Origin: Verrucomicrobiota bacterium
GTDB lineage: Bacteria > Verrucomicrobiota > Verrucomicrobiia > Limisphaerales > JACDHS01
DNA: 64,000 bases
NCBI GenBank assembly: GCA_013820875.1
Contig: JACDHS010000004.1
Location: 35,816-99,815 of the forward strand
Direction: 5' to 3'
Shown here piece by piece: positions 4,527 to 63,204 of this stretch. The position numbers were made by a program, and so were the translations under genes. How positions within the stretch are numbered: the first letter of the stretch is position 1; each line of letters begins with the position of its first letter. A model generated the notes under the pieces. That model ran no database searches and was not told where the DNA came from. It saw only the letters and a program-made list of their open reading frames with translations.

Positions 4527-5390
4527 TTAAGCTTTGCCGATCAGAATGCCGAGCATGCCCATGCCATACATTCCACAAATCATTTTGGCGCGAAACCGGA
4601 GTTGGCCATACATCTCGCTGCTGTTGGTGCGCTTATAGAAAGCCACCAGGGACAAAAGCAGCAGCAACAGGTTGAACACAGACCACCCGGCAAACACCGG
4701 CGAAATTACGGTCTGCCATGCCAACAGTATGGAATAAGCGATAAGGCATCCAAGCGATGCAACCGCCAGCAGCATCGTTCTCCGTTCTCCATGAACCAGG
4801 GCCAGGGTGGGAAAACCCTTGATGCGGTCGGCTTCCATATGCGCCAGAACATGAATGAGTTCAAGGGGAAGGTACAGACCAAAAATGAAGAGCCCCATCA
4901 AGGCTTCTCCGCCTGACACATGATTGTCGAGACTCGAACCCGCCAAAAAGAATAACCCGAATCCCAGTGAGTTAAGGAACAATCGCCAAAACAGTCTTCG
5001 CTTTAAAACAAACGGCGGCGCGGAATGAAGCCAGACCGTCACCGCAAGCAAAGAAACGATTGCGAACGTGGTGAACGAAATCATCCAGGCGACACCGAGC
5101 GAAAAGATCAGAAAGGCATAGATACATCGCATCATCTCGCGAGTAGTTGTTTCATCCCCGGCGACCTTCTCTTTGATCTCATCGAAAAATTCGTTCAATG
5201 AATAGCCGTAAGCAAGACAGAGGCAGGAGAGGACGAGACTGGCTCCAATGAACGACCAGCTTCTGCCCAGGAAATCATCGGCAAAGAATGCTCCCAGCAA
5301 AAAGACGCCGTTTTGGACGGACCAGTCTTTGATGCGCAATAGCTGCACGCCGTATCTGAGTTTTTGCGGCATTGGGATGGCAGAGTTCAT
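4527..5390 (-). CDS. UbiA-family membrane prenyltransferase
   Basis: 287 residues with about eight hydrophobic segments. The first Asp-rich prenyl-diphosphate motif is present in relaxed form (YSLNEFFDEIKEKVAGDE, an N-x3-D pattern) around residue 75, and a second conserved stretch follows (HMEADRIKGFPTLALVHG). UbiA enzymes transfer a prenyl chain to an aromatic ring or other acceptor in quinone, heme, chlorophyll and lipid synthesis. It sits between the TPR membrane protein gene (21-base gap) and the CrtC-like lipoprotein gene (3-base gap), and faces the geranylgeranyl-reductase-like gene. Acceptor and chain length cannot be told from sequence. Confidence 0.8.
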   Translation of the reverse strand: MNSAIPMPQKLRYGVQLLRIKDWSVQNGVFLLGAFFADDFLGRSWSFIGASLVLSCLCLAYGYSLNEFFDEIKEKVAGDETTTREMMRCIYAFLIFSLGVAWMISFTTFAIVSLLAVTVWLHSAPPFVLKRRLFWRLFLNSLGFGLFFLAGSSLDNHVSGGEALMGLFIFGLYLPLELIHVLAHMEADRIKGFPTLALVHGERRTMLLAVASLGCLIAYSILLAWQTVISPVFAGWSVFNLLLLLLSLVAFYKRTNSSEMYGQLRFRAKMICGMYGMGMLGILIGKA

Positions 5391-46646: not shown

Positions 46647-47732
46647 ATGCGACCGATGATAGATGCGCACCTGGATCTAGCCTGGAACGCGCTTTATTTT
46701 AACCGTGATCTTTTGGCGAGCGTTGCTGAAGTTCGACAATCCGAGAGCGGCATGACCGATCACCATGCGCGCGGATCGAACGCGGTCACGCTGCCGGAAC
46801 TTCGGCGGGCAAATATTCCCGTTTGCATCGCGACCTTGATAGGGCGGAGCGGTCCGGACAAACCGCAGCGTCAGCAGTTCAATCGCACGGACCTTGATTA
46901 CGCTACCCAGGCGATCGCCTATTCGCATGCCCAGGGACAATTGGCCTATTATCGTCTGCTCGAAACACAAGGTCATCTGCGCTTCATTACCACGCGCGGG
47001 GAATTAAAGACGCACTGGGATTCATGGATGGCATCCCCGGTCACGACGCCTCTCGGAATCATTCTCGGGATGGAAGGGGCCGATTCCATTCTCAACCCGG
47101 AGAATGTGGAGGCCTGGTGGAAACAAGGATTGCGGTCGGTCGGCCCCGTGCATTATGGCCGGAGCCAATATGCGCATGGAACAGCGACGAATGGGCCGCT
47201 AAGCGAATCGGGGATAAAGCTGCTGAAAGAATTCATGCGCACGGGGATGATTTTGGACGTCACACACCTCTGCGATAAATCCTTTTTCCACGCGCTGGAG
47301 ATTTACAACGGTCCGATGCTTGCGAGTCATCATAATTGCCGCGCGCTGGTCCCTAATGACCGACAACTGGCGGATGAACAAATTAAACTTTTAATTCAAC
47401 GCGACGCGGTGATTGGAACAGCGTTTGATAATTGGATGCTGCACCCAGGCTGGAAGCGCGGTGAAACGAAACCAGAAGTGGTCGGCATCGAAGCAGCGGC
47501 GGATCACATGGATCATATTTGTCAACTCGCCGGCAACACGCAGCATTGCGCTTTCGGTACCGATCTGGATGGTGGCTTCGGCACAGAACAAACCCCCGGC
47601 GACCTCGACACGATCACCGATGTTCACAAACTCGAACAGATCCTCGCTCAACGCGGTTACAAGGACAGCGACATCGATGGGATTTTCTTTGGCAACTTGC
47701 TTAGGTTCTTCAGTGCTGCCCTTCCTGAGTAA
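46647..47732 (+). CDS. Dipeptidase, peptidase family M19 (renal dipeptidase type)
   Basis: 361 residues. Zinc-site start MIDAHLDLAWNALYF (His-x-Asp), the bridging Glu in LGIILGMEGADSI, His ligands in ILDVTHLCDKSFFHALE and MLASHHNCRALVPNDRQ, and HCAFGTDLDGGFG. M19 enzymes cut dipeptides, often with a D-residue at the second position. No signal peptide is visible, so it is likely cytoplasmic. Together with the D-threonine-aldolase-like gene it suggests use of D-amino acids from wall peptides. Its stop overlaps the convergent cyclase gene by 23 bases. Confidence 0.9.
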   Translation: MRPMIDAHLDLAWNALYFNRDLLASVAEVRQSESGMTDHHARGSNAVTLPELRRANIPVCIATLIGRSGPDKPQRQQFNRTDLDYATQAIAYSHAQGQLAYYRLLETQGHLRFITTRGELKTHWDSWMASPVTTPLGIILGMEGADSILNPENVEAWWKQGLRSVGPVHYGRSQYAHGTATNGPLSESGIKLLKEFMRTGMILDVTHLCDKSFFHALEIYNGPMLASHHNCRALVPNDRQLADEQIKLLIQRDAVIGTAFDNWMLHPGWKRGETKPEVVGIEAAADHMDHICQLAGNTQHCAFGTDLDGGFGTEQTPGDLDTITDVHKLEQILAQRGYKDSDIDGIFFGNLLRFFSAALPE

Positions 47733-49617
47733 TTCGAACTTCACGCGTTTCCCTGACGGCTCGAAGGGCGCCGCTCGTAAAAACCAGCGGATAAAGCCGC
47801 TCGTAATACCACAATTTAGCGAAATAAAAACCGATGGGGGCCGGTTGGGGCCATTCGCCGCTTTCCACTTTTCGGATTAAGTATTCGGTCCCGCGTTCTG
47901 CTGCTGCGAGCGTGGCAGTCTTCGTTTGTATCGAGAGAATCGGAATTCTTAGAACTGCAGAGATCGACTCTACCGCGAGCGCTGTTTCTTCGGTGGACGA
48001 TGGAATATTCGTGGAACCGCCCCAACCGCCGTCCGCATTCTGCGCCGAAAGCAGCCACTGCAGCCCGCGATCGAGTGACCGTTGGAGCATCGGGGATTGT
48101 GTGTCCAGAGCGCTTAACGCCAACAGCACGCGCGATGTTCCGTAAACCGGATTTTCATCATCGGGACTGGCTTGATTTCCAAACCAGAGCGGAACCCAGG
48201 AGCCGTTCTCATTTTGCACGCGTTTGAGGTAAGCCACTGCTTTGGTAATGCCTTGGCGCAATTTCTCTAGGAATGTTGCATTCAGATGGGGTGACCACGC
48301 GTAAGCCGCCCGAATGAAATGCGCTGTGATGTCCTGGCTGCTTCGATCGAATGGCAATGCGCCCCATCCGCGACAGAATGTCGGGATTCCGCCATCGCGA
48401 TTCTGGACGCCCAGAAGCCATGTTAGACCGGCAGTAGCGGCATCCAAAGTTCCCGGGTGCGCGTGACGCAAGTGGAACAATGCAAGCACTGCACCAGCGG
48501 TGTCGTCGGAATCGGGAACTCCGCCCGGCAACTCTGTCCAAGCCCAACCACCAGGTTTGGCGTGAGTATAGGGATGTTCAATCTTGTGTTGTTCGCCGAT
48601 TAGAAGTGCAGCCAGTGCAGCGGCATCTTTCTCATCCAATACTCTGCTGGTTTCACTTTGAAGCGCATTGATGGCGAGTGTCGTTACCCACGTGGAAAGA
48701 TTCGAATCTATAGGCCAACTGCCATCCGCGCGGACGGATCTCTCCAGGAAACCAACCGCTTTGATGGCGGCAGGATGGGCGGAGAGTTCCATCGCCGCCA
48801 GGCTCATCAGAACAAAAGAGGTCAGAGGAATCGCCTCCAGAAAGCCGCCGTTCTCAGGCTGGATTTTGGCAAGGATTTTGAGCGTGCGCTTCTTTGTGAG
48901 ATGCCGGATCAGTCGAGGAATGGGATTCTTCGGCGGACAATGATGAAAGAGCGTCTGCCCGATTGCGATGAGCGCGGGTAACGCGTAGCTGACGACTGGC
49001 AATTGCAACGCTCCATAAACCTGGTGAGGAAATACTGCCAATTCGAAGGGTAAAGAAGGAATCCGTTCCCATGCTTCACGACCCGATCCAAGACGATTTC
49101 CGAGGACGCAGGTCATCAGGATCGGAACTGAGAACGTGCGATCTTTGCCGTAACGCTTTTCGATGGCAGAAACCAACTGGCCGATTGACTCGCCATTCGC
49201 AGCTTTGGTTAACCACTGGCGTGCTCGGAGACAATTTTCCGCATAACGAAAGTCAGCATCGAGCACCGCGCCGAAAGCAGCCCAGCACAGCGCGGTTGTG
49301 CTGATATTGCTGATGCTGAGAAGAGTGTCTCCCCAGCCACCGTCTGCATTCTGGTTCCCGGCGAGCCAGTCGAGTCCGGTTGCAATCAATTGCTGATGCC
49401 TGGGATCAGGCGCTTTAGAATTTCGAGTGAGCACTGCGAGGGCGCATACCGCCGTGGCCGTGGACAAAGCGCTGCTGGAGAGTTCACCAATCCATTTCCC
49501 GGACGTATGCCGCTCAGCCAGCAAGGTGCGGACGGCAGTCGCACACGCCACATCCAAACGGCTGCATCCGGCGGGAGTATTGGTTTGCGGCGCTGAGTTC
49601 ATTTGTTCTATTGCCAT
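47710..49617 (-). CDS. Squalene-hopene-cyclase-like class II terpene cyclase
   Basis: 635 residues from ATG 49617 (ATG 49602 is also possible; the frame runs up to 49809 but that part lacks family features). Alpha-barrel built of QW-type repeats (QNADGGWG twice, QNRDGGIPTF, QNENGSWVPLWFG). The catalytic acid motif is intact: GGVPDSDDTAGA gives DxDDT at ~369-373, the site where squalene-hopene and other class II cyclases protonate the polyene. The C-terminal GFYFAKLWYYERLYPLVF echoes the SHC end. Similarity is clearly weaker than to true hopanoid enzymes, so the substrate may be a different polyprenyl compound. Last gene of the eight-gene minus-strand cluster, about 270 bases after the prenyltransferase-repeat gene. 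Confidence 0.82.
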   Translation of the reverse strand: MAIEQMNSAPQTNTPAGCSRLDVACATAVRTLLAERHTSGKWIGELSSSALSTATAVCALAVLTRNSKAPDPRHQQLIATGLDWLAGNQNADGGWGDTLLSISNISTTALCWAAFGAVLDADFRYAENCLRARQWLTKAANGESIGQLVSAIEKRYGKDRTFSVPILMTCVLGNRLGSGREAWERIPSLPFELAVFPHQVYGALQLPVVSYALPALIAIGQTLFHHCPPKNPIPRLIRHLTKKRTLKILAKIQPENGGFLEAIPLTSFVLMSLAAMELSAHPAAIKAVGFLERSVRADGSWPIDSNLSTWVTTLAINALQSETSRVLDEKDAAALAALLIGEQHKIEHPYTHAKPGGWAWTELPGGVPDSDDTAGAVLALFHLRHAHPGTLDAATAGLTWLLGVQNRDGGIPTFCRGWGALPFDRSSQDITAHFIRAAYAWSPHLNATFLEKLRQGITKAVAYLKRVQNENGSWVPLWFGNQASPDDENPVYGTSRVLLALSALDTQSPMLQRSLDRGLQWLLSAQNADGGWGGSTNIPSSTEETALAVESISAVLRIPILSIQTKTATLAAAERGTEYLIRKVESGEWPQPAPIGFYFAKLWYYERLYPLVFTSGALRAVRETREVRITQEGQH

Positions 49618-49671
49618 TAAATCTGCGCGTGACGTGATTGTGCCGGAAGCCATAACGTTCAGAAACATTTT

Positions 49672-49884
49672 ATGGATAGGCCAACCAGTATTTCCCAAAT
49701 CAAAAAGGCGTGCGCGAATATCGCGAGTGAGCTGATGAAAATCCATCCTGCCGTGGGGAGCCTCGGCGACAAACCGGCTCAGGACGATATTATCAAAGCC
49801 ATTTATCAACTCACCAAGGAGCTGGAAACGATTAAGAAGAAGGTGGCTGCGGTGGAACGGCAGGAAGACACGCCTGAAATGTGA
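49672..49884 (+). CDS. Possible small coiled-coil protein
   Basis: 70 residues, Lys/Glu/Ile-rich, predicted helical (QIKKACANIASELMKIHPAV, TKELETIKKKVAAVERQ). It is the only plus-strand gene candidate inside the terpenoid cluster, sits in the gap between the two cyclase-type genes and ends exactly one base before the stop of the convergent gene. No ribosome-binding site is clear. It would exclude the longest start of the cyclase gene, which supports the shorter start chosen there. No family recognised. Confidence 0.45.
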   Translation: MDRPTSISQIKKACANIASELMKIHPAVGSLGDKPAQDDIIKAIYQLTKELETIKKKVAAVERQEDTPEM

Positions 49885-50778
49885 TCAGATGCTTAGGTGC
49901 CCCAGTGCGAGCAGACCATAATAGGTGTATTCGCAATCGAGTTGATCATCGTTCCAATGACCGTAAAAGCCTCCTTCGTTGGTCCAAAGAGAATCTACGA
50001 AATCCAGGCATTGCTCGCGCACCGGAGCGATGTCTCTTTCAAGGCAGGCCAACGCGTGCAGCGCTGTCGCCGTGGAGAGGAGATCGGGGACGGGAATTTC
50101 TGCGCTGGCGTTAAACCCGCCGAGCTTATGTGCCCGCTGCAGAAGCCAATCGCCAACTGCCGAATTCACAGGCATACCAAGATTTGTGAGAAGAACAGCG
50201 GCGGCGGCAGTAGGATTTGTGCCGGCAGTTTTCGTGTGGATATCGTTCGACCATCCGCCATCAGGAGTTTCGAGGCGTTTCAAACTTTGAACCAGTTGAA
50301 GAGGATCTGGAATCGAAACGCCGAGATCCTGTAGAGCACCCACTGCTAGAAAGGCGGCGTAAACCGCGCCGAAATCCTGGCCTTTGAACAGGTTGAACCC
50401 ACCATCCTGAGAACGGTAAGCCGCGATCTGGCTGGCCAACCGCTCGCGAACGAGCTCCGGGCATCGCACCTTGGCGGAGTGCGCGATTGTTCCCCAGCAA
50501 CGCGCCAGGCAGCAGAGATGAATGAAATCGAGGGCAGCAGGATCGGTGAACTGCAATAGATAACGGGACACAGCATCGGCGGGAACAGCAGCTTGCACGG
50601 CGAGCAAGCCATCTAAACCGAAGACCGAGTAGTAAAGGTCACTTTTCCCTTCGCGATCCTGGAAAGCGCCTTCGCTGGTTTGGTGAGCGTTGAGAAATGT
50701 TTCAACCAGTCTCGCTGAGTCGCCGAGAAGATTCGGCGCAAGGCGGGCGACCTGCAACATTTCCAGACGCAAGTTCAC
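49885..50778 (-). CDS. Prenyltransferase/squalene-oxidase-repeat protein (GGTase-beta-like)
   Basis: 297 residues forming a single alpha-alpha barrel. Repeats of the protein prenyltransferase beta-subunit type: DLYYSVFGLDGLLAV, YRSQDGGFNLFKGQDFGAVY, LETPDGGWSNDIHTKTAGTN, LWTNEGGFYGHWNDDQLDCE. The C-terminal DCEYTYYGLLALGHL keeps the Asp-x-Cys and His positions that bind zinc in GGTase beta subunits. There is no DxDD motif, so it is not itself a class II cyclase. It may prenylate or bind an isoprenoid intermediate. Within the minus-strand cluster, after the DUF116-polyprenyl-synthase gene. Confidence 0.75.
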   Translation of the reverse strand: MNLRLEMLQVARLAPNLLGDSARLVETFLNAHQTSEGAFQDREGKSDLYYSVFGLDGLLAVQAAVPADAVSRYLLQFTDPAALDFIHLCCLARCWGTIAHSAKVRCPELVRERLASQIAAYRSQDGGFNLFKGQDFGAVYAAFLAVGALQDLGVSIPDPLQLVQSLKRLETPDGGWSNDIHTKTAGTNPTAAAAVLLTNLGMPVNSAVGDWLLQRAHKLGGFNASAEIPVPDLLSTATALHALACLERDIAPVREQCLDFVDSLWTNEGGFYGHWNDDQLDCEYTYYGLLALGHLSI

Positions 50779-50805
50779 GAGGAAAAATGCGTCGAAGCCG
50801 CAAAA

Positions 50806-50838
50806 CGGAGCGCGGCTGTGTCCGAAGGATCAGCCGCA
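50806..50838. repeat. REP-like hairpin inside the cluster
   Basis: GCGGCTG (50812-50818) pairs with CAGCCGC (50831-50837) around TGTCCGAAGGAT. The arm GGAGCGCGGC recurs, inverted, near 645-655 and 7866-7876. Located in the 146-base gap between two cluster genes, where it could end or stabilise transcripts. Confidence 0.6.
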
Positions 50839-50924
50839 GCAGCCAGGGATGGAACTGGACGCTTAGAATATTCCAGATTGTGTCCATCTGTATCCATCTG
50901 TGGTTTCTCTATTGATGAACTCTG

Positions 50925-52643
50925 CTAAGCCACCTTGGCTTCGGGCTGCGTTTGTTTGTTCTTTTGCTCGAACTCAGCGCACCAGCCTTTGATTTCCGTG
51001 TCGTTGAAGATCTTGCCGATGACGCGGCGCAACAATCCTTTGAGACTGGCGTTTTCGACATCGCGCAAGGAACGGATTGCTTCCTCCTTGTATGTTTCAA
51101 GCAAGGTGCGGGCTTTTTCGTCCACTTTCAATTCCATGTAGAGAGCCTGAATTCTTGCGGCATCGGGCCTCGTTGCAGGCTGCCACAAATTATGGAGAAT
51201 GCCGCGGTGTTCTCCGCTGGCGCGTTCCAGCGCGATCGAGAGCAAAATGGAAGGGCGCAAACCTTTGATGTCTTTGGCCTGTTCTTCCGCCTCAAGATCG
51301 GCGAGGTCATCACGGATCTGGTAAGCGATCCCAAGTGCTTCGCTGTATGCCTGCAAAGTTTCCTCCAGTTCGTCACATTGCTCGAGACTCGCGGAGATAG
51401 CGCCGAGCTGTAGTGCCACCTGGAAAGCTGGAGCCGTCTTGCCTCGGAATATGTTAACCACCTCCAGGGTGGTGAGCGGTTTGGGATTTCGTCCCCAACT
51501 GAGCTCCTCGCCCTGACCACAGCAGAGTTCGCGTTGACTCTCAGCAGCAGCGAGAATCATGCGGGCCTTTTGTTCTGCGGAAAGGCGCGTGGAAGCAATC
51601 AGGCGGTAACCTTCACCAATCAAGAGATCGCCGACATTGAGTGCGATCGGTATCCCGTGTTGTTCGTGCAGGGTGTTCTGCCCGTAGCGTTCTGAATCGG
51701 CATCCTCGATGTCGTCATGAACGAGGGATGCTTTGTGAAAACATTCCACGGCAACGGCAATCTTGCGCAGGTCATCGGAAAACATTGTGCCGCCATCAGT
51801 TCGCAATGCCTGATATGTCGCGACACTCAGGAAGGGACGCCAACGTTTGCCGGCGCGCATCAACCATTCGCGAGCAATGCGTTCTGCTTCTCCTTCCACA
51901 GATCCCATCAAGGATTGCAACGACTCAGCCGTGAACCACGAATCCACTTCATCTCTCAATGAACCGAGATCCACGCGGCGCGTTTTGTCGTCGCTGGTGA
52001 GGTGGATATAATCCCAAACCCAATCGAGATCGACATTGGTATCGATGCAATCGTCCTGGAGCAGGGGAACGGCCACACCGGGAACAGCGGCCGCTTCCAT
52101 GTAAGGAAACGCGCGTTCCAGCACGCTCAAACAACTAACCCCAACAATCGCTTCGATCTTCCCCGTTTGAATCAGCGACATCACAATCGCCGAACCTTCC
52201 GCCACCAACACAGCGTAGCCGAGGCGTTCGGCTTCGTTCTGTAGATCCTGAATGGAACAGAGACCGCACTGCTTGCACAACAAGCCGAACTCATCGAAGG
52301 GCGCCGGACATTTGCTTTCCACCCGCAGACATTTTGGGAGAAGCAAAAGGCGTCGTTCGAACGGGACGGCGGCTAGCGTTTCACGCCACATTTCATTGTT
52401 GATCAGAACGCCGACGTAATCCCGGTAAATTGGATCGCAGCCAAGTTGGGCAACGAGTTTATCCGCGTGCGTCTTCAATTCGTCTGAAGGCATCGGCGGG
52501 ACTGGGTTGAACTCCGCAACGTATCTTCGTGTGGCGTGGAGAATTGCGGTTCGTTCCGCCGGTGTTTGCGGAACATTCTTTTTCGGCGGACGAATGCGTT
52601 GAATCGGAACGGGCCTTGGCAAATTGAATGTGATGGGCTGCAT
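50925..52643 (-). CDS. Fusion: DUF116 domain + trans-polyprenyl diphosphate synthase
   Basis: 572 residues from ATG 52643, preceded by GGAGG at good spacing; upstream in-frame codons overlap the radical SAM gene and are rejected. Residues ~95-215 are a DUF116 domain with its Cys set (CLRVESKC, CKQCGLCSIQDL, IVGVSCLSVLERAF, QDDCIDTNVD), a likely Fe-S or metal site. Residues ~235-545 are a polyprenyl synthase: first Asp motif LVHDDIEDADSERYG (D310, D311, D314), second RDDLADLEAEE (D445, D446, D449), basic AGKRWRPFL before them. It would condense isopentenyl units into an all-trans chain. The C-terminus ends in a charged tail. The fusion ties chain building to a redox-type domain. Confidence 0.85.
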   Translation of the reverse strand: MQPITFNLPRPVPIQRIRPPKKNVPQTPAERTAILHATRRYVAEFNPVPPMPSDELKTHADKLVAQLGCDPIYRDYVGVLINNEMWRETLAAVPFERRLLLLPKCLRVESKCPAPFDEFGLLCKQCGLCSIQDLQNEAERLGYAVLVAEGSAIVMSLIQTGKIEAIVGVSCLSVLERAFPYMEAAAVPGVAVPLLQDDCIDTNVDLDWVWDYIHLTSDDKTRRVDLGSLRDEVDSWFTAESLQSLMGSVEGEAERIAREWLMRAGKRWRPFLSVATYQALRTDGGTMFSDDLRKIAVAVECFHKASLVHDDIEDADSERYGQNTLHEQHGIPIALNVGDLLIGEGYRLIASTRLSAEQKARMILAAAESQRELCCGQGEELSWGRNPKPLTTLEVVNIFRGKTAPAFQVALQLGAISASLEQCDELEETLQAYSEALGIAYQIRDDLADLEAEEQAKDIKGLRPSILLSIALERASGEHRGILHNLWQPATRPDAARIQALYMELKVDEKARTLLETYKEEAIRSLRDVENASLKGLLRRVIGKIFNDTEIKGWCAEFEQKNKQTQPEAKVA

Positions 52644-52668
52644 GTAATTTTTTCCTCCGTTTCGAATT

Positions 52669-53934
52669 TCAGTTTGCGACAGACTCCTTTTCGACACTCT
52701 CCACCAACTTGCGCGCCTTGGCAGACGCATCGTGCGCCACATCCCTGTAGGCGCCAAAGTCAGTGAACCAATACTTCTTGGCCAGGCGATACATCCAGTG
52801 TTTCTCCGGCACTTCTTCACCGGGCAACCATTGGCTGAAGCGTGGCTGCATTGCTTCGAGTTCCGCCATGGCAGTCTGACGCACCGTTGTATCACGGGCG
52901 CCATGTTTGAGCACCAGGTTTTTTACCAACTCCGGATTCTCCAACACCACGCATCCCCGGGTCGCTTTCCCAGATAGCTGCCTGAAGTCACGCAGGAACG
53001 CTGAATCCCGGAACACATTGTAGATGTTCCGTTTGTCAGAAATATTATCGGTCGCAAACTGGATGATGGGACAAGGCTCAATCTCTCCTTTTGGACTGAT
53101 GTGATGGCTGATGCCGGTCACCATCGGGCAAAGAGCTTTGCCCTGGTGATCGTAGTACGCGTCGATGATCGCAATGGGCATTTTGGAACGCATTTCCACG
53201 ACGAAATTTCGCACCTCGACGAGTTGCTTTGGATGCAATGCGAGCTGCGGATTCATCTTCGGTCCCACGGGACGATAAGTGTGGTACCAGACGTAATGCA
53301 CCCCTCGATCAATCAGCTTCTGTAGCCACTCTTTTGTAAGAAGATCATCTATATTTGTTTGGCAAACACTGGTCGCAACGCCGGTGAGGATCCTCTCACG
53401 AATGCAGTTGTCGAGCCCGCGTAACGTACGATTCAGCACCTCTTTATTTCCACGGCGTTGATCACTGACAATGTCGGTTCCTTCGATACTGATCAATGGA
53501 GTGACATTCCCAAGGCGACGGAGTTCCGCTGCCACTTTCTCGGTGATGAACTGTCCGTTGGTGAATACCTGGAAATAACAATCGGGATGTTTCGCAAGAA
53601 TCTCCAGCAACTGCGGATGCATGAATGGTTCCCCGCCCAAAATTCCGAAGAAGGTGTTGCCGCGCGCTTTCGATTCGGAGATGAGCCGGTTCAATGTTTC
53701 GGCTTCGATCATGTCTCGTTCCGCCGCAACATCCACCCAACAGCCCTGACAGCGGAGGTTGCAGGAGTTGATGATGGAAATGTAGAGAAAGGGAGGAAAG
53801 TATTCGCCCCGTTTTAAGCGGCGCTTGAATTTCTCCACTGACAACATCCCTTTCACGCCAAAGTTCCACATGAACTTCCACAGCAAACGTTTGTCAGCGG
53901 AACGAAAGGCGCGAATGGCAAGTTGTGGCAGCAT
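52669..53934 (-). CDS. Radical SAM enzyme with extra C-terminal Cys residues
   Basis: 421 residues. Canonical cluster motif NSCNLRCQGCW (Cys 58, 62, 65), followed by the usual GILGGEPFMHPQLLEIL (GGEP) and FQVFTNGQFITE. Later Cys in HQGKALCPMVTGISHHISPK and GEIEPCPIIQFA suggest an auxiliary cluster of SPASM type. Family members start radical chemistry with S-adenosylmethionine. It resembles hopanoid-associated and other lipid-modifying radical SAM proteins only in general; I do not assign it to HpnH. Two bases downstream of the ferredoxin gene, so an electron donor is encoded next to it. Confidence 0.85.
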   Translation of the reverse strand: MLPQLAIRAFRSADKRLLWKFMWNFGVKGMLSVEKFKRRLKRGEYFPPFLYISIINSCNLRCQGCWVDVAAERDMIEAETLNRLISESKARGNTFFGILGGEPFMHPQLLEILAKHPDCYFQVFTNGQFITEKVAAELRRLGNVTPLISIEGTDIVSDQRRGNKEVLNRTLRGLDNCIRERILTGVATSVCQTNIDDLLTKEWLQKLIDRGVHYVWYHTYRPVGPKMNPQLALHPKQLVEVRNFVVEMRSKMPIAIIDAYYDHQGKALCPMVTGISHHISPKGEIEPCPIIQFATDNISDKRNIYNVFRDSAFLRDFRQLSGKATRGCVVLENPELVKNLVLKHGARDTTVRQTAMAELEAMQPRFSQWLPGEEVPEKHWMYRLAKKYWFTDFGAYRDVAHDASAKARKLVESVEKESVAN

Positions 53935-53936
53935 TT

Positions 53937-54698
53937 TTATTTAGAGTTATTTTGCAAAGCAGCAGCGGCTTTGGCTTTGGCCGTTTCCGCGCGTTGCGCG
54001 ATTTCTTCAGGTGACGGCAGAGCCATCAAAACTTCCGCAGGGATGTCTCCGGCTTCCGCCAGTTTCACCAGGCAACGCTGCCTTTCCTTCAAGGCTTTGT
54101 CCGGATCACGTTCCTTGGAGAAGCGGGACTGGGCGCGTTCGCTACGGGTGCGGAGCATGGCATAGACATCACCGCCGAGCAGAGCGGAAATATCGATCTT
54201 CATTTTTTCCCGCTGCAAATCCGCCGTCGTTACGATGTCGCCATTGATCGGCCCCGTCTTGTATTTCGGAAACATGATCGCTGCTTCCGGACAAACGCGG
54301 GAACACGCCGGACAATTTGTTTTGCAGCTATCGTTATTCTGAACCTCAATCTTGTGATCCTGATCAACGCCGTAAACGCCGAACAAACAGAAACTCAAAC
54401 ACTGCATGCAGTTGGTGCAGCGATCGTAATCAATCACCGGGAACCATGGCTTCCACTCGCCTTGCTTGACGGCTTCACGTTCCACACGCGCCGATTCCGC
54501 CTGTTCCACAATGTGTCCAGGAGCGCTGTCTTTCTGGATCAGCAAGACATTCGGACTCTCTGTAGCAACGGAACCAGACTCAGTCGTGCAGGTGACCGTG
54601 TAACCGTTCTCGAGCAGCTTCTGCAGTGTCTCAAACCTTGTTTGAACTGGTGTTTCTGCCAGAACGATGCGCAACGTTTTCTGATCTTTCAGACTCAT
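53937..54698 (-). CDS. 2[4Fe-4S] ferredoxin-domain protein
   Basis: 253 residues. An N-terminal ~90-residue region of unknown type (LRIVLAETPVQTRFETLQKL, NVLLIQKDSAPGHIVEQAES, receiver-like) precedes two Cys motifs: YDRCTNCMQCLSFCLFGVYG and CKTNCPACSRVCPEAAIMFP, each able to hold a [4Fe-4S] cluster with the CxxCxxC...CP pattern. The C-terminal helix is Ala/Glu-rich. Probable electron carrier for the radical SAM enzyme. ATGA overlap with the preceding small gene. Confidence 0.85.
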   Translation of the reverse strand: MSLKDQKTLRIVLAETPVQTRFETLQKLLENGYTVTCTTESGSVATESPNVLLIQKDSAPGHIVEQAESARVEREAVKQGEWKPWFPVIDYDRCTNCMQCLSFCLFGVYGVDQDHKIEVQNNDSCKTNCPACSRVCPEAAIMFPKYKTGPINGDIVTTADLQREKMKIDISALLGGDVYAMLRTRSERAQSRFSKERDPDKALKERQRCLVKLAEAGDIPAEVLMALPSPEEIAQRAETAKAKAAAALQNNSK

Positions 54699-55087
54699 AG
54701 TGGTGCAGATTGGTTTGCTTTGGGGCCGGACTCCTGGGAGGTCGGCAAATTTGATTTCAAATCTGGTTGAAGCAAGCGTTCAACAATTTCATCCGCAGTT
54801 TGAGAGCGCATATTCAGGACTTCAGTCGCGTCGGGAGCCAGCGGAGCTTGAGCCGCCGCAAACAACCACTTCACCGCCCGAGGATAGCAGGCAGCTATTT
54901 TAATCTGACCACTTTCGACCTGGCGCTTCAGGGAAGGATCCCGTCGCGCCGATGATTCACACAAATCCGCTACCGCCTCGAATGGAACATTCGCTTCGCA
55001 GAGTTTGCGCAGGACAGCCTCTTTCACTTCTTTCGGCACCACTTGAGCGTAGGCGCAATGACAGTAAATGATCTTTGGTTTACTCAT
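54695..55087 (-). CDS. Small cysteine-containing protein of unknown function
   Basis: 130 residues. Begins KPKIIYCHCAYAQVVPKEVK, where the C-x-C resembles the start of heterodisulfide-reductase-type Fe-S subunits (HdrA-like YxCHC), then FEAVADLCESSARRDPSLK and IAACYPRAVKWLFAAAQAPL. Four Cys in total. No named family recognised. Overlaps both neighbours by a few bases, so it is made with the CobW-type GTPase and ferredoxin. Confidence 0.72.
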   Translation of the reverse strand: MSKPKIIYCHCAYAQVVPKEVKEAVLRKLCEANVPFEAVADLCESSARRDPSLKRQVESGQIKIAACYPRAVKWLFAAAQAPLAPDATEVLNMRSQTADEIVERLLQPDLKSNLPTSQESGPKANQSAPL

Positions 55088-56222
55088 GGGCAGGCGTCAG
55101 CAGGCGGTGCGTTGGGTTGGGGCGGCCGGGACGAAAATGTTCCAGGTGATCGACGACCAGCTTCAGTCCGGGCGTCTCGTTCTGAACATCGGTCACAGCC
55201 TTCAAGACGGTATCCCGTAATAATTCAGGTGAAGCTTCTGCTCTCAAATTGATGATCATTTGTGCGCGATGAACTGGTTCCTCCAACGATTGCGAAAGCT
55301 CCGCAATATAATCGTTACGAACCAGATTGATCACAGCGACATCCCCGAATCCGACGTCGGGACTCACCGTCATCTTCAAATGACCGATTTCTACTGCGTG
55401 TCGTCCCAGTTCGCATTGAATGAGTTTCGCGATTTCTTTCAGCGCGGCATTGGCGTCAATGCCTTCGCCGCTCGACAGTTCCAGTGTGCAATTCAGCCAA
55501 CCGAGCAACGCTTCGCCTTCTGCGTAAATATCATAGTCCAAAGGCACTGCCGCACTCGCCTGCTGTAACTCTGTTTGGATGTGATGAAACCACTCTGCAA
55601 GACCGCTCCCGTCACGGGCTGAAGTTTTGAACAGCGTGGCCTGTGGAAATTCGCGCGCGAAAACTGCCTCTAACTGCGCGGACTGTTCTGCTGTGAGAAG
55701 ATCGGTCTTGTTCAAAACAATCACGTCAGCCTCCGCAAGTTGTTTCCGAAAGATATAAAGAACCTTGTCCGAGAACTTGCCGCCTTGTTCGACGCCAAAA
55801 ATCCGCAGTGCCCGAATCGGATCCACCAACACGCTGAGCGGCGCTATCAGGAAATTTCCGCCATAAATTCTGCGTAAAGGATACGTCACCGTTGCAACCA
55901 GGTCGGTGCAACTGCCAACCGGTTCGGCAACAAAAACATCAGGTCGGGTTTCATCCGTTAACTTTTGCGCCGCATCCGTCAGTGAATTGAAGCGGCAACA
56001 AAAACATCCCCCGGAAATCTCCTCCGTCGCAAAACCCCGCGATCGTAGCATCGCCGTATCTACCAGGTTGGTCCCTTGATCGTTTGTGATCAGTCCGACG
56101 CGCAAACCTTGTTCGCTTAGATGTTTTGCGAGTGCAGCCACCGCTGTCGTTTTACCCGCCCCAAGGAAACCACCAATCATGATGTAGCGAGGTTTCCTTT
56201 TCGTGGTGTCGGTCAGGTTCAT
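55080..56222 (-). CDS. CobW/HypB-type G3E GTPase (metal-insertion family)
   Basis: 380 residues. P-loop MIGGFLGAGKTTAVAALAKH (~15-34), switch GLITNDQGTNLVDTAMLR, the metal-binding Cys motif GGCFCCRF (GCxCC), and the guanine site VIVLNKTDLLTAEQ. G3E GTPases load metals or cofactors into target enzymes. The C-terminal half differs from COG0523 standards. Its start overlaps the GcvH-like stop (ATGA), indicating a dedicated partner in this cluster rather than a general metal chaperone. Confidence 0.88.
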   Translation of the reverse strand: MNLTDTTKRKPRYIMIGGFLGAGKTTAVAALAKHLSEQGLRVGLITNDQGTNLVDTAMLRSRGFATEEISGGCFCCRFNSLTDAAQKLTDETRPDVFVAEPVGSCTDLVATVTYPLRRIYGGNFLIAPLSVLVDPIRALRIFGVEQGGKFSDKVLYIFRKQLAEADVIVLNKTDLLTAEQSAQLEAVFAREFPQATLFKTSARDGSGLAEWFHHIQTELQQASAAVPLDYDIYAEGEALLGWLNCTLELSSGEGIDANAALKEIAKLIQCELGRHAVEIGHLKMTVSPDVGFGDVAVINLVRNDYIAELSQSLEEPVHRAQMIINLRAEASPELLRDTVLKAVTDVQNETPGLKLVVDHLEHFRPGRPNPTHRLLTPAHE

Positions 56223-56746
56223 GATTGTTTCTCGAGCATGCGCTCAATGGTTTTATCCAACAGGTTCACGTAGCCCTCCACATTACCGCAATTGATGTCT
56301 GGTTTACCCCGCACTTTATAAAGCCATCCATCAGAGTAGGGAAGTTTGTTCACCAATTCGACCTGCTCCTGCAGCCTGGAATTTCCCTCCACGAACTCTC
56401 CTTCTGCGATGCAGAAAATATCGCTCATCGCTTTAAACCCTTCGATCCAGCCGATGGCTTGCCCGACACAAACCGCCCCGTTCGGTTCAACCTCAATTTT
56501 ATGATCTACAATCTCACCCAACATTCGCGTGGCAAATTTGGTGAAGCCAATACGCCAAACGCCTTCCGACTCCTGCGCGATCCAGCAATGTGACGGGCTA
56601 TAGAGATAATCAACCGGCAATTGCGTCGCGAAGTGCGAGTTCTTATACTGCACTGTTTTTTGTGAGGAAGTATTCACGCGATGATCAGGAAATCTCTGAA
56701 AGTATTCGGGCCGAAGCTGCTGTTGGCAAGCGGTGAATCCCGTCAT
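56219..56746 (-). CDS. GcvH-like lipoyl-carrier protein
   Basis: 175 residues from ATG 56746 (ATG 56755 possible). An N-terminal ~45-residue extension with a Cys (TGFTACQQQLRPEYFQRFPD) precedes the glycine-cleavage H fold: YSPSHCWIAQESEGVWRIGF, FATRMLGEIVDHKIEVEPNG, and the lipoylation site IEGFKAMSD with Lys ~105 (cf. ESVKAxSD in GcvH). None of the other glycine cleavage genes (gcvT, gcvP) is present, so it is probably a specialised carrier, as in sHdr-type clusters where a GcvH-like protein serves a different pathway. First gene of the eight-gene cluster; only 17 bases separate its start from the divergent cysteine desulfurase start. Confidence 0.85.
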   Translation of the reverse strand: MTGFTACQQQLRPEYFQRFPDHRVNTSSQKTVQYKNSHFATQLPVDYLYSPSHCWIAQESEGVWRIGFTKFATRMLGEIVDHKIEVEPNGAVCVGQAIGWIEGFKAMSDIFCIAEGEFVEGNSRLQEQVELVNKLPYSDGWLYKVRGKPDINCGNVEGYVNLLDKTIERMLEKQS

Positions 56747-56763
56747 TTGCCTCATTGAAGTCC

Positions 56764-57912
56764 ATGATTTATTTCGATCACAACGCCAGTTCCCCCCTTC
56801 ATCCGGCAGCGCGAGCAGCGTGGTTGGATGCTTGCGACAAATTTGTCGCGAATCCCGCAAGCCAGCATCGTCTCGGTCAACGCGCCGAAATGGCTCTGGA
56901 GGAAACGCGCGGCTCTCTTGCTAATTTCCTCCGTTGCGATCCCCTGGATATCGTTTGGACGTCGGGCGCTTCTGAGGCAAGCAACATGGTTTTTCATCAT
57001 TTTTCCCGAACTGCGCAGGTCAGCGGAGATGAAATTTGGATTTCCGCGATCGAACACCCAGCGGTGAAGCAACCGGCAGAATTTTATTTTGGCAAAACCG
57101 TTCGCTTCATTCCTGTGAACGAGCGTGGAGTCATCTCCCTGGATTGGCTGGTGGAACAACTCAAAACGAAGAAGCCGCGACTGGTTGCAGTGATGGCTGC
57201 CAACAATGAAACAGGAGTTCTCCAACCATGGCGCCAGATCTCAGTCCTCTGTCGCGAACATGGAGTGCCGTTCTGCTGCGATGCAACTCAGTGGCTGGGC
57301 AAGCTTCCGGCGAGCGGGCTGGGTGAATGCGATTTCGTTATCGGGAGCGCGCATAAATTCGGCGGGCCACGCGGCGTCGGTTTCCTGAAACACTCCGCTG
57401 GACAGAACGCTTCTGCGCTCATTCGAGGTGGCAAGCAACAGAACAGCAGGCGCGCTGGCACAGAAAACCTACCAGGCATCCTCGCAACAGTGGCAGCATT
57501 GGCTGCAATCGAAAATGCGCTGGCAAAAGATGAACATCTGGCGCGCCAACAATGGCGTGATGACTTTGAAACTCGCTTGCTCGCGTCTGTTCCAGGAGCG
57601 CGAGTGATCGGCGCGAATCAGGAGAGGCTTTGGAACACCAGCATGGTCGTTCTGCCGGACACAAATTGCGCATTCCGCTGGGTCGTTAAGCTGGACAAGC
57701 AAGGCTTTGCGGTCTCCACCGGCTCAGCCTGCGCCAGTGGCGCGGAACTACCTTCGCACGTGCTGTCCGCCATGGGTTGTCCCGCGCAAGAAATTTCAAA
57801 CACCATCCGCATCAGTGCTGGTTGGGACACGTTCGCCACAGACTGGGAGCGCCTGCTGGGTTGCATCATCTCGACAGCCCCCGTCAAGGATGGGCGCCAG
57901 ATGGCTCGATGA
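56764..57912 (+). CDS. Cysteine desulfurase (NifS/IscS-like)
   Basis: 382 residues from ATG 56764. PLP-dependent: MIYFDHNASSPLHPAARAAW, TSGASEASNMVFHH, AVMAANNETGVLQPWRQIS, and the PLP Lys in IGSAHKFGGPRGVGFL. The Cys loop reads STGSACASGAELPSHVL, so the catalytic Cys is present. It takes sulfur from cysteine for Fe-S clusters or sulfur-containing cofactors. Divergent from and abutting the GcvH-like gene, it likely supplies Fe-S clusters or lipoyl sulfur to the radical SAM/ferredoxin proteins of the cluster. Confidence 0.92.
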   Translation: MIYFDHNASSPLHPAARAAWLDACDKFVANPASQHRLGQRAEMALEETRGSLANFLRCDPLDIVWTSGASEASNMVFHHFSRTAQVSGDEIWISAIEHPAVKQPAEFYFGKTVRFIPVNERGVISLDWLVEQLKTKKPRLVAVMAANNETGVLQPWRQISVLCREHGVPFCCDATQWLGKLPASGLGECDFVIGSAHKFGGPRGVGFLKHSAGQNASALIRGGKQQNSRRAGTENLPGILATVAALAAIENALAKDEHLARQQWRDDFETRLLASVPGARVIGANQERLWNTSMVVLPDTNCAFRWVVKLDKQGFAVSTGSACASGAELPSHVLSAMGCPAQEISNTIRISAGWDTFATDWERLLGCIISTAPVKDGRQMAR

Positions 57913-61362: not shown

Positions 61363-61857
61363 ATGAGGGCGCTTATGAGAAACCTTAACATTTTATTCGT
61401 CGCGTCACTTGCACTGCCTCTTTTGCTGGCAACCGGTTGTGGTGGCGGCGCTGATTCCAATGCTGCGTCAAACAATGATCCATCCTCCACAACATCGGCT
61501 TCGGCTGTGACGGTTCATGATGTTGCCATGCGAGGCGAGGGCACGACGTTCTATTTCGAACCGAAAGAGCTTACAATTCAACGAGGGGACGTGGTGCGAT
61601 GGAAAATGGTGGATGGAGCACCGCACAACGTGAATTTCACGGGACAAAAGATCCCCGAGGGAGCGCGCGTTATCCTGGCGAACAAGAAGAAGCTGATGGG
61701 AATGATGCTCGTGGCCGCCGGCCAAACCTACGAGATGAAATTCACTGAAGACTTCCCCTTCGGCGACTACAATTATGTTTGTGATCCGCACATCGCTTTC
61801 AACATGACCGGCAAGATCACCATTGCAGAGAAAAGCGAACTCGCCTCCTCAGAGTAG
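61363..61857 (+). CDS. Plastocyanin-like cupredoxin lipoprotein
   Basis: 164 residues. Lipoprotein leader LALPLLLATGC. Cupredoxin domain ~45-160: YFEPKELTIQRGDVVRWKMV, first ligand DGAPHNVNF, and the C-terminal ligand loop NYVCDPHIAFNMTGKITI with Cys, His and Met, a complete type 1 copper site. Small blue copper electron carrier on the outer face of the membrane. Between the SCO1-type copper chaperone and NnrS genes. Confidence 0.9.
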   Translation: MRALMRNLNILFVASLALPLLLATGCGGGADSNAASNNDPSSTTSASAVTVHDVAMRGEGTTFYFEPKELTIQRGDVVRWKMVDGAPHNVNFTGQKIPEGARVILANKKKLMGMMLVAAGQTYEMKFTEDFPFGDYNYVCDPHIAFNMTGKITIAEKSELASSE

Positions 61858-61995
61858 TCGCGGGTGTTTCGCGGCAAAATCTCCGCTGCCACGGCAAAAA
61901 ACGTGTATATTGGATCGCGCTACGGACGCGGTCATGTTTCGACACCTTAACCGCGTTTGCAAAATTGCAACGCACTCGGCAATCTGCGGTCAAAT

Positions 61996-63204
61996 ATGGG
62001 CGCTCAAAATAATCAGCCGAAGGTCACCTCCCGAATCTCCCTCTCTGAACTGGGCCGGGAGCCGTTCCGCATCTTCTTCCCGGCAGCCGTGCTCGCCGGG
62101 CTGTTTGGGGTTTCGCTCTGGCCGCTTTTTTTCGGTGGTATGACCAGTCTTTATCCCGGGCAAGGGCATGCCCGAATCATGGCGTATGGCTTTTTCGGTG
62201 GTTTTATCTTTGGATTCCTGGGAACCGCGATGCCTCGCATGCTCTCCGTTCCGCCGCTCGGATTGAGAAACGTTTCTCTGCTCTTCACTCTGTATGTGGC
62301 AATGAATATTGCGTTTGCAACAGGGCATGTTGCATGGGGCGATGGCCTTTTCGCAACGTTACTCGTATTTTTTGCGACCGCCATGATTCTTCGGGTCCGC
62401 CATCGCGAAGCGCTGCCGCCGCCAGGATTCGTGCTCGTCGGAATGTCTTTCGCCTGCGTGTTCGCAGCCGCTGTCATGGCTCTATGGCAACATCAGAATC
62501 CCGAGACCGGAGCCTATTGGCATTCTCTACAGAAGTTGCTCGGTTACCAGGGATTCGTGTTGCTGCCGATTCTGGGCATCGGGCCGTTCATCCTGCCGCG
62601 CTTTTTCGGCATGCCCAGTTCCCATGATCTCCCAGACAGCATAAAGCCAAGCTCAGCGTGGAGGAAAAAGGCGGTTCTCGCTCTTTCAGCAGGACTATTG
62701 ATCGTGGTCTCCTTCTTCATTGAAGCCGCAGGCAACCTCAAAGTGGCGTACGGACTCCGGTTTATCGTTACGGCCGCCTACCTCCTCCTGGAATTCCCAT
62801 TCCGAACCGCTAAAGCAGGGGGGAACGCATTAACACTGTCGCTGCGACTTGCGCTCGCTTTGATGGCAGCCGGTTTTCTCGCGGTCATGCTGTTCCCAGC
62901 TTACCGCACAGGGTTGCTTCACCTGACGTTGATGGGCGGTTTTGCGGTGGTCACGTTTGTGGTGGCCACTCGGGTCATCTTTGGACACAGCGGTAATCTC
63001 GCCAAATTGAAACTGCCAAACCGGTGGGTATTTGTGGCAGTTTCGTTGATGATCATGGCCATGGCCACTCGCCTCAGCGGCGATCTCTGGCCCAAGCTCA
63101 TGGTCTCACACTACAACTATGGAGTCCTGGTCTGGGCCGCCGGTGTGTTGTTATGGGCGTGGAAAGTTTTGCCCAGGGTGTTGGAGGCTGAGCCGGAAGA
63201 TTGA
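61996..63204 (+). CDS. NnrS family membrane protein
   Basis: 402 residues from ATG 61996. About twelve TM helices. Family features: REPFRIFFPAAVLAGLFGVS, YPGQGHARIMAYGFFGGFIF, GFLGTAMPRMLSVPPLG, and RVIFGHSGNLAKLKL. NnrS is a heme- and copper-containing protein linked to nitric-oxide/nitrosative stress handling and, in some species, denitrification. Follows the cupredoxin and SCO1 genes, so the three may form a respiratory or NO-response set. Confidence 0.9.
   Translation: MGAQNNQPKVTSRISLSELGREPFRIFFPAAVLAGLFGVSLWPLFFGGMTSLYPGQGHARIMAYGFFGGFIFGFLGTAMPRMLSVPPLGLRNVSLLFTLYVAMNIAFATGHVAWGDGLFATLLVFFATAMILRVRHREALPPPGFVLVGMSFACVFAAAVMALWQHQNPETGAYWHSLQKLLGYQGFVLLPILGIGPFILPRFFGMPSSHDLPDSIKPSSAWRKKAVLALSAGLLIVVSFFIEAAGNLKVAYGLRFIVTAAYLLLEFPFRTAKAGGNALTLSLRLALALMAAGFLAVMLFPAYRTGLLHLTLMGGFAVVTFVVATRVIFGHSGNLAKLKLPNRWVFVAVSLMIMAMATRLSGDLWPKLMVSHYNYGVLVWAAGVLLWAWKVLPRVLEAEPED

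Follow-up and report, generated by a model that had tools for sequence, protein, structure and literature searches.

What does a bacterial locus make when it places a polyprenyl diphosphate synthase and a cyclase resembling squalene–hopene cyclase (SHC) beside a radical S-adenosylmethionine (SAM) enzyme, iron–sulfur proteins and a lipoyl carrier? We examined this question for positions 47710-57912 of a 64,000-nucleotide stretch of a Verrucomicrobiota bacterium contig (the whole stretch is hereafter the window), where open reading frames (ORFs) and Pfam matches define eight minus-strand genes and one divergent gene. Judging from gene content, motifs, co-occurrence and tree position, from which the reactions and the product are predicted, we tentatively favour the answer that the locus encodes a squalene-independent, reductively driven iron–sulfur/radical SAM pathway to a cyclised isoprenoid lipid, with a core common to five phylum-level lineages. 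In the open-licence PubMed Central literature (preprints excluded), we found neither a description of the gene cluster nor a function for the fusion of DUF116 and polyprenyl synthase at its centre.

The cluster is co-inherited in diverse bacteria

A search of 288 Verrucomicrobiota genomes for DUF116 matched 62, of which 61 were used for genome-wide searches (G094, with a broken short match, was omitted). Neighbourhoods of up to 20 kb gave 60 stretches from 57 DUF116 genomes (G032, G094, G202 and G218 are absent, and G000 is the window genome); the fusion was encoded in 50 of these stretches, or in 51 genomes counting the window. Using the window proteins as queries (E up to 1e-60 for the radical SAM protein and up to 1e-25 for the cyclase), we detected the radical SAM gene in 48 of the 51 fusion genomes versus none of the 237 others, and the cyclase gene in 50 of 51 versus 3 of 237 (Fisher p < 1e-45 for both pairings, with no correction for phylogeny). 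The exceptions were three fusion genomes lacking the radical SAM gene (G114, G124 and G209), one lacking the cyclase (G213), and three with a cyclase and no counted fusion (G139, where it is short; G218, where the DUF116 frame lies at a contig end; and G247). Chance alone comes nowhere near explaining the arrangement, and the cluster is real. A preliminary description of this DNA had proposed an undescribed, co-conserved cluster that is neither a hopanoid nor a glycine-cleavage locus, and had named scattering of the genes in related genomes as the observation that would count against it. That proposal is supported, and the genes are not scattered: the core genes are linked in most loci, and in the six genomes, all of one family, in which the fusion lies apart from the other genes, the radical SAM enzyme, the cyclase and CobW are each retained in six of six.

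To gauge breadth, a profile built from 14 fusions was run against GTDB genomes and matched at least 590 stretches, at least 575 of them encoding relatives; 80 loci were kept. Both Pfam domains were present in all 120 protein relatives among the matches listed, the window's included. The fusion occurred in loci titled Verrucomicrobiota, Planctomycetota, Acidobacteriota, Bacteroidota (including Labilibaculum, Marinifilum, Parabacteroides and Rikenellaceae), Lentisphaerota, Kiritimatiellota and Riflebacteria, nearly all from metagenome-assembled genomes (MAGs) whose lineage is taken from record titles, some of which look doubtful. The shared core consists of an HdrA-like iron–sulfur protein, the radical SAM enzyme, the DUF116–synthase fusion, a single toroid and the cyclase, and it stands whole and side by side in loci with five of these titles (Verrucomicrobiota, Planctomycetota, Acidobacteriota, Bacteroidota and Riflebacteria). 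The sole Lentisphaerota locus (L149) shows three core functions before its contig ends, and in the sole Kiritimatiellota locus (L152) only the fusion and toroid were seen. Fusions were also found in MAG records titled Akkermansia muciniphila or Kuenenia (L091, L097, L101, L106, L147 and L134); these titles look doubtful because one 'Akkermansia' MAG yields two different fusions (L091 and L097) and the 'Kuenenia' fusion groups with Planctomycetaceae.

A cysteine-rich DUF116 domain is fused to a polyprenyl diphosphate synthase

The fusion, a protein of 572 amino acids encoded at 50925-52643 on the minus strand, matches DUF116 (3.5e-36) and polyprenyl_synt (1.1e-41). Seven cysteines and the first aspartate-rich motif are invariant in 63 of 63 fusions, and the second motif is kept in at least 90%. 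With both aspartate-rich motifs and the corresponding fold, the synthase half has the features of a trans-polyprenyl diphosphate synthase. Because PDB fold searches with the whole fusion aligned the synthase half only (residues 224-548), our statements on fold are confined to that half. Makarova, Galperin and Koonin proposed in 2015 that DUF116 (arCOG02078) adopts a flavodoxin-like fold and transfers electrons, and they noted its fusion to a polyprenyl synthetase in Pirellula staleyi Psta_0175 (PMC5898192). That account concerns the identical domain, and the section on DUF116 mentions no cyclase, radical SAM enzyme or product. A candidate kinship between DUF116 and the N-terminal domain of HdrA was rejected, as hhalign returned P values of 0.01 against the C-x-C protein set described below (35 columns) and 0.35 against HdrA, with unrelated controls at 0.039-0.76.

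The cyclase is set apart from squalene–hopene cyclases

The cyclase gene (47710-49617, minus strand; SQHop_cyclase_C 2.4e-38) encodes the protonation motif of class II terpene cyclases as DSDDT at 48513-48499, in line with the intact DxDDT reported in the preliminary description. All three aspartates of DxDD are kept in 62 of 62 aligned cyclases, the window's included (59 DxDDT and 3 DADDS). The closest solved relative of the window cyclase is an SHC (1gsz, 7.9e-26 by PDB sequence match). The protein nevertheless scores 124.1 bits against the SHC model TIGR01507, whose cut-off is 431.1, and 134 bits against TIGR01787 for squalene/oxidosqualene cyclases, whose cut-off is 322.7.

The window genome, in 239 contigs, also encodes an ordinary SHC (707.2 bits against the 431.1 cut-off; contig C75 of G000, L171:5619-7622) and HpnD (290.6 bits against a cut-off of 278.6; contig C173, L172:5370-6233), both on contigs other than the window's. 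The genome has two SQS_PSY proteins on other contigs, the HpnD being the one that exceeds its cut-off. The preliminary description had remarked on the lack of usual shc and hpn genes and had named, as grounds for doubt, hpn genes elsewhere in the genome combined with a cyclase grouping inside ordinary SHC. The remark holds for the locus but not for the genome. Of the two grounds for doubt, only the hpn genes elsewhere apply: the cyclase scores far below the SHC cut-off (124 bits against 431) and shares only 28% identity across 290 residues with the SHC of its own genome. Across the 61 DUF116 genomes, SQS_PSY was detected in 11, and 40 of the 51 fusion genomes, many of them incomplete MAGs, had no match, which makes a squalene supply from outside the cluster unlikely there. 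The SHC relationship of the cyclase and the presence of HpnD in the window genome would suit a variant hopanoid pathway with squalene as the cyclase substrate. The subthreshold scores against both cyclase models, the low identity to the resident SHC and the missing squalene synthase led us to reject that pathway, and we consider it highly improbable.

The hopanoid (hpn) pathway shares a DxDDT class II cyclase with the locus, and it too has radical SAM tailoring of a ring lipid, by HpnH. It differs in that the cyclase of the locus falls under the SHC cut-off, an iron–sulfur domain is fused to the synthase, an HdrA-like protein is present, and squalene synthase is absent from the locus and from most fusion genomes. 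Squalene independence has a precedent in the gromomycins of Streptomyces, which are called the first bacterial triterpenes made without squalene and whose pathway, like that predicted for the locus, combines a polyprenyl synthase with a cyclase; the cyclase GroF with its DLADPD motif, Rieske and P450 proteins and an arginine-derived head group are that pathway's own (PMC12105684). A Pfam scan of the nine locus proteins found none of the gromomycin-specific families. The Rieske and P450 proteins of the gromomycin pathway are oxygen-dependent. In the Bacillus sesquarterpene pathway, an SHC-family enzyme also acts on a polyprenyl chain other than squalene; it requires a class IB synthase and is not known to have an iron–sulfur or radical SAM partner.

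Between the cyclase and the fusion lies a gene for a single alpha–alpha toroid similar to the protein geranylgeranyl transferase (GGTase) beta subunit (49885-50778, minus strand; Prenyltrans 7.2e-15). The metal ligands of that subunit are Asp, Cys and His. In the alignment, the column of the Cys ligand holds Leu in 77 of 81 sequences (Leu234 in the window) and that of the His ligand holds Tyr in 78 of 81 (Tyr284), so the toroid lacks the Cys and His ligands of a GGTase beta subunit.

An HdrA-like protein accompanies the radical SAM enzyme

Two small adjacent genes encode a CxC...DLC...ACxPRA protein of 130 amino acids (54695-55087, minus strand), which had no match in the Pfam scan, and a 2[4Fe-4S] ferredoxin protein of 253 amino acids matching Fer4 families (53937-54698, minus strand). 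The preliminary description, whose overall interpretation is partly supported by our data, listed the two separately and missed that they resemble the two ends of HdrA: they form a single polypeptide in 47 of the 78 loci where this was assessable, and 12 cysteines are invariant in 38 of 38 such fused proteins. We regard the ferredoxin as the C-terminal part of a 'mini-HdrA'. Its best PDB match is HdrA (8rvv, 1.6e-6). The likeness of the C-x-C protein to the HdrA N-terminal domain is probable, judged by hhalign (P 3.4e-4, probability 37.8%; unrelated controls P 0.05-0.35) and by a top Foldseek match to HdrA (8rvu, E 3.1e-3, probability 0.94). The HdrA model NF041891 aligned to positions 7-94 of the C-x-C protein at E 0.058 and matched 2 of 10 such proteins, and a PDB profile search with this N-domain gave no HdrA match. 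HdrA has in common with the window pair a C-terminal two-cluster ferredoxin and, probably, an N-terminal CxC...C...C domain. Unlike HdrA, with its thioredoxin-reductase-like flavin adenine dinucleotide (FAD) domain, the 130- and 253-residue proteins have no flavin-domain Pfam match, and no HdrB or HdrC of a heterodisulfide reductase is found among the nine genes.

The radical SAM enzyme (52669-53934, minus strand; Radical_SAM 2e-13) carries CNLRCQGC and SPASM/twitch-like cysteines. CxxxCxxC is present in 79 of 80 aligned sequences, and C58, C62 and C65, together with C269, C288 and C328, which we take to be auxiliary-cluster cysteines, are kept in at least 79 of 80, as in SPASM/twitch enzymes. 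Its best family matches are NirJ- and SPASM-type; among the matches listed (25 of 53), no subfamily model reached its cut-off and the HpnH model did not appear. In seven planctomycete loci (L138, L139, L142, L144, L148, L154 and L155), a B12-type radical SAM gene immediately upstream of the fusion replaces the SPASM-type gene, which suggests a different tailoring step there.

The HdrA-like ferredoxin gene usually adjoins the radical SAM gene or lies near it, an arrangement that would also suit a labdane-like or long-chain class II route, in which the diphosphate is kept at cyclisation and DUF116 and the HdrA-like protein only supply electrons to radical SAM tailoring. The conserved synthase and DxDD motifs are compatible with such a route, as is the electron-transfer role, with a flavodoxin-like fold, put forward in the DUF116 section of the 2015 account (PMC5898192). 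It leaves unexplained, however, why the iron–sulfur domain is fused to the synthase and not to the radical SAM enzyme, and the best PDB sequence matches of the cyclase are SHCs. We consider this route possible, though unlikely.

Lipoyl carrier, GTPase and desulfurase genes are probable accessories, mainly of one branch

The remaining genes encode a CobW-family GTPase (55080-56222, minus strand; cobW 1.2e-26), a GcvH-like lipoyl carrier (56219-56677, minus strand; GCV_H 4.3e-23) and a divergent NifS-like cysteine desulfurase (56755-57912, plus strand, starting at TTG 56755 or ATG 56764; Aminotran_5 8.9e-53). We built an unrooted FastTree phylogeny of 125 fusions, in which the window falls within one branch of 62 (support 99), and counted genes beside fusions of at least 400 amino acids and a score of at least 450 (124 of 140 loci scanned). 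Within the stretches read, the fusion had GcvH as a neighbour in 27, CobW in 28 and NifS in 14 of the 61 further loci of this branch, versus 0, 1 and 0 of the 63 loci outside it; core genes occurred both inside and outside. Because contig ends cut many loci, missing genes there are no evidence of absence, and because the tree is unrooted it does not decide between gain and loss. As GcvH and NifS were found beside the fusion in one branch only, and CobW mostly so, we treated the three as accessories. This distribution does not support a central role for the sulfur/lipoyl chemistry invoked in the preliminary description.

CobW is more widespread genome-wide, with an orthologue (E < 1e-60) in 19 of the 61 DUF116 genomes. 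Seven of these 19 have a fusion outside the branch, five of them with CobW on the contig of the fusion at a distance of 17-19 kb. Among the fusion genomes, 9 of the 13 that have COX1 carry the orthologue, versus 10 of the 38 that do not (p 0.009). The GCFCC and EPVGSCTDL motifs of CobW are invariant in 31 sequences. Its proline-rich C-terminal tail (residues 365-373), with P365, P368, P370 and R373 invariant in the same 31, is possibly a docking motif.

The GcvH-like protein is a predicted lipoyl domain, with the putative lipoyl-lysine K81 (codon 56434-56432) invariant in 29 sequences. It scored 78.3 and 83.7 bits against the GcvH models TIGR00527 (cut-off 115.85) and NF002270 (cut-off 117), and a stronger GCV_H match lies elsewhere in the window genome (159.6 versus 83.2 bits). 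In the sHdr–LbpA system of sulfur oxidation, as in the locus, a GcvH-like carrier is clustered with Hdr-like and radical SAM genes, and LbpA has two strictly conserved cysteines (PMC6067878). The nine genes of the locus include neither an hdrC1B1A-hyp-hdrC2B2 set nor a lipoate ligase gene, and the LbpA cysteines are unconserved. The alignment columns in which the window's GcvH-like protein has Cys hold it in 5, 1, 16 and 11 of 29 sequences, and no other column has Cys in more than half. The best hint at a role comes from genomes in which the radical SAM gene is detached from the fusion (eight read, seven further left out): GcvH adjoins the detached gene in four of the eight (G012, G066, G118 and G217), pointing to a carrier and radical SAM enzyme that work together, and was not found in the stretches around it in G187, G190, G199 and G234.

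This adjacency, with the invariant predicted lipoyl-lysine, would accord with a pathway in which NifS supplies sulfur, the lipoyl carrier holds an intermediate and the radical SAM enzyme inserts sulfur into an isoprenoid. Against it, the core persists outside one branch, where GcvH and NifS stand beside no fusion, making this chemistry unlikely as the core function; moreover, the two cysteines diagnostic of sulfur-carrying LbpA are unconserved (16 of 29 in the best column) and the radical SAM enzyme best matches NirJ- and SPASM-type families. We judge it improbable.

A predicted reductive route to cyclised isoprenoids

In the squalene-independent pathway that we favour, the synthase half of the fusion would build a polyprenyl diphosphate chain (C20 or longer is a guess). 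The DUF116 half, with its seven invariant cysteines, would carry an iron–sulfur centre and act reductively on that chain, for example by removal or coupling of the allylic diphosphate, so that the cyclase would receive a chain that other bacteria make via squalene synthase. Both DUF116 and the radical SAM enzyme would receive electrons from the HdrA-like protein, whether this is split in two or a single chain. The DxDDT enzyme would initiate cyclisation by protonation, with the metal-free toroid as its putative partner, and the radical SAM enzyme, or the B12-type one that replaces it in seven planctomycete loci, would add functional groups to the rings. GcvH and NifS, mostly accompanied by CobW, would in one branch adjust the supply of redox equivalents, cofactors or sulfur, perhaps to suit an oxygen-exposed life. 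What the pathway yields and what DUF116 and the lipoyl carrier do in it are all inferred; the reductive role of DUF116 is the most specific of these proposals and is suggested by four features: fusion to the synthase, conserved cysteines, an HdrA-like partner and the lack of squalene synthase in most fusion genomes.

We do not assign the system to SHC, squalene/oxidosqualene cyclases, GGTase-beta, GcvH, LbpA or full HdrA, because a check of the features that define each of these groups failed to find them. Every domain family in it is known, and the chemistry is predicted. A bolder and rather doubtful extension is that DUF116 founds a new class of iron–sulfur enzymes acting reductively on allylic prenyl diphosphates: joined to the synthase and supplied with electrons by a reduced form of HdrA, it would open a route to polycyclic membrane lipids that needs neither oxygen nor squalene synthase, including a sterol or hopanoid surrogate in anaerobic sediment and gut bacteria, with a lipoyl carrier added on entering aerobic hosts.

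Sterols, hopanoids and similar cyclic isoprenoids are the textbook lipids for ordering membranes and also serve as molecular fossils, and genes of the SHC family are often taken as hopanoid markers. One planctomycete genome paper, for example, assigns polyprenyl synthetases together with terpene cyclases to carotenoid or hopanoid formation (PMC8303584). If the locus makes another class of ring lipid, part of the hopanoid marker signal would be misread and ring lipids would be present even in lineages without squalene synthase. DUF116, a domain also found in methanogens, would gain a function, and the free lipoyl carrier a second Hdr-like setting.

Electron-transfer and other genes near the cluster

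In 20-21 loci the cluster has NapH/NosR-like, NapG-like and beta-propeller genes as neighbours, and 10 loci show NuoE-like genes. At L137:4180-7925 and L160:14143-21528, the module comprises NuoE/F-like, GltD-like FAD, NapH/NosR-like and NapG-like genes and PQQ and NHL beta-propellers; it occurs in many lineages without COX1 and looks like an NADH-linked complex. Fifteen of the NapH-like module loci are in Verrucomicrobiota genomes (14 without COX1) and four are Bacteroidota, and 3 of 21 also carry GcvH or CobW. A strict exclusion between GcvH/CobW and this module was considered and dropped, having no significance when taken together. In L137, NuoF-like and GltD-like FAD genes directly abut the HdrA-like gene, consistent with an electron source dedicated to the pathway; these genes might provide the HdrA flavin part in trans.

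Such neighbours could also mean that the product is a membrane redox carrier for the NADH/NapH-type electron chain encoded nearby in some lineages. Most loci have none of these genes within the stretches read, however, and NapH/NuoE-type genes might just as well provide the pathway with electrons. A UbiA-family gene was found in 58 of the 61 DUF116 genomes, so that ordinary quinones are possible and their absence is unusable as an argument. A redox-carrier product seems quite improbable to us. In six loci (L035, L037, L038, L039, L041 and L137; two of the six scanned), a family-4 glycosyltransferase gene lies 5-10 kb from the fusion, and the product may be glycosylated in loci of this kind.

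Gene order and surroundings in the window

Read from 56677 to 47710, the minus-strand order is GcvH-like carrier, CobW, C-x-C protein, ferredoxin, radical SAM enzyme, DUF116–polyprenyl synthase fusion, toroid and cyclase. In agreement with the preliminary description, the nine genes carry the domains that it named, and six minus-strand genes overlap or lie within 25 bases of one another: the GcvH/CobW, CobW/C-x-C and C-x-C/ferredoxin junctions are overlaps of 4-8 bases, and gaps of 2 and 25 bases separate ferredoxin from radical SAM and radical SAM from the fusion. The fusion/toroid gap is 146 bases, and that between toroid and cyclase about 270, counted from the probable cyclase start at ATG 49617, which is not the 5' limit of its ORF (TTG 49809). 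For the GcvH-like gene, GTG 56677 is the most plausible start; the ORF start at 56860 is disfavoured because it would overlap the desulfurase gene. By ORF reading, the two divergent genes leave an intergenic region at 56678-56754. Beyond the cyclase, an M19 dipeptidase gene (46647-47732, plus strand) converges on it with a 23-base overlap at the cyclase end. Farther away in the window are a UbiA-family match of 66 bits (4617-5300, minus strand), distant from the cluster, and consecutive genes for a plastocyanin-like copper protein and NnrS (61363-63204, plus strand).

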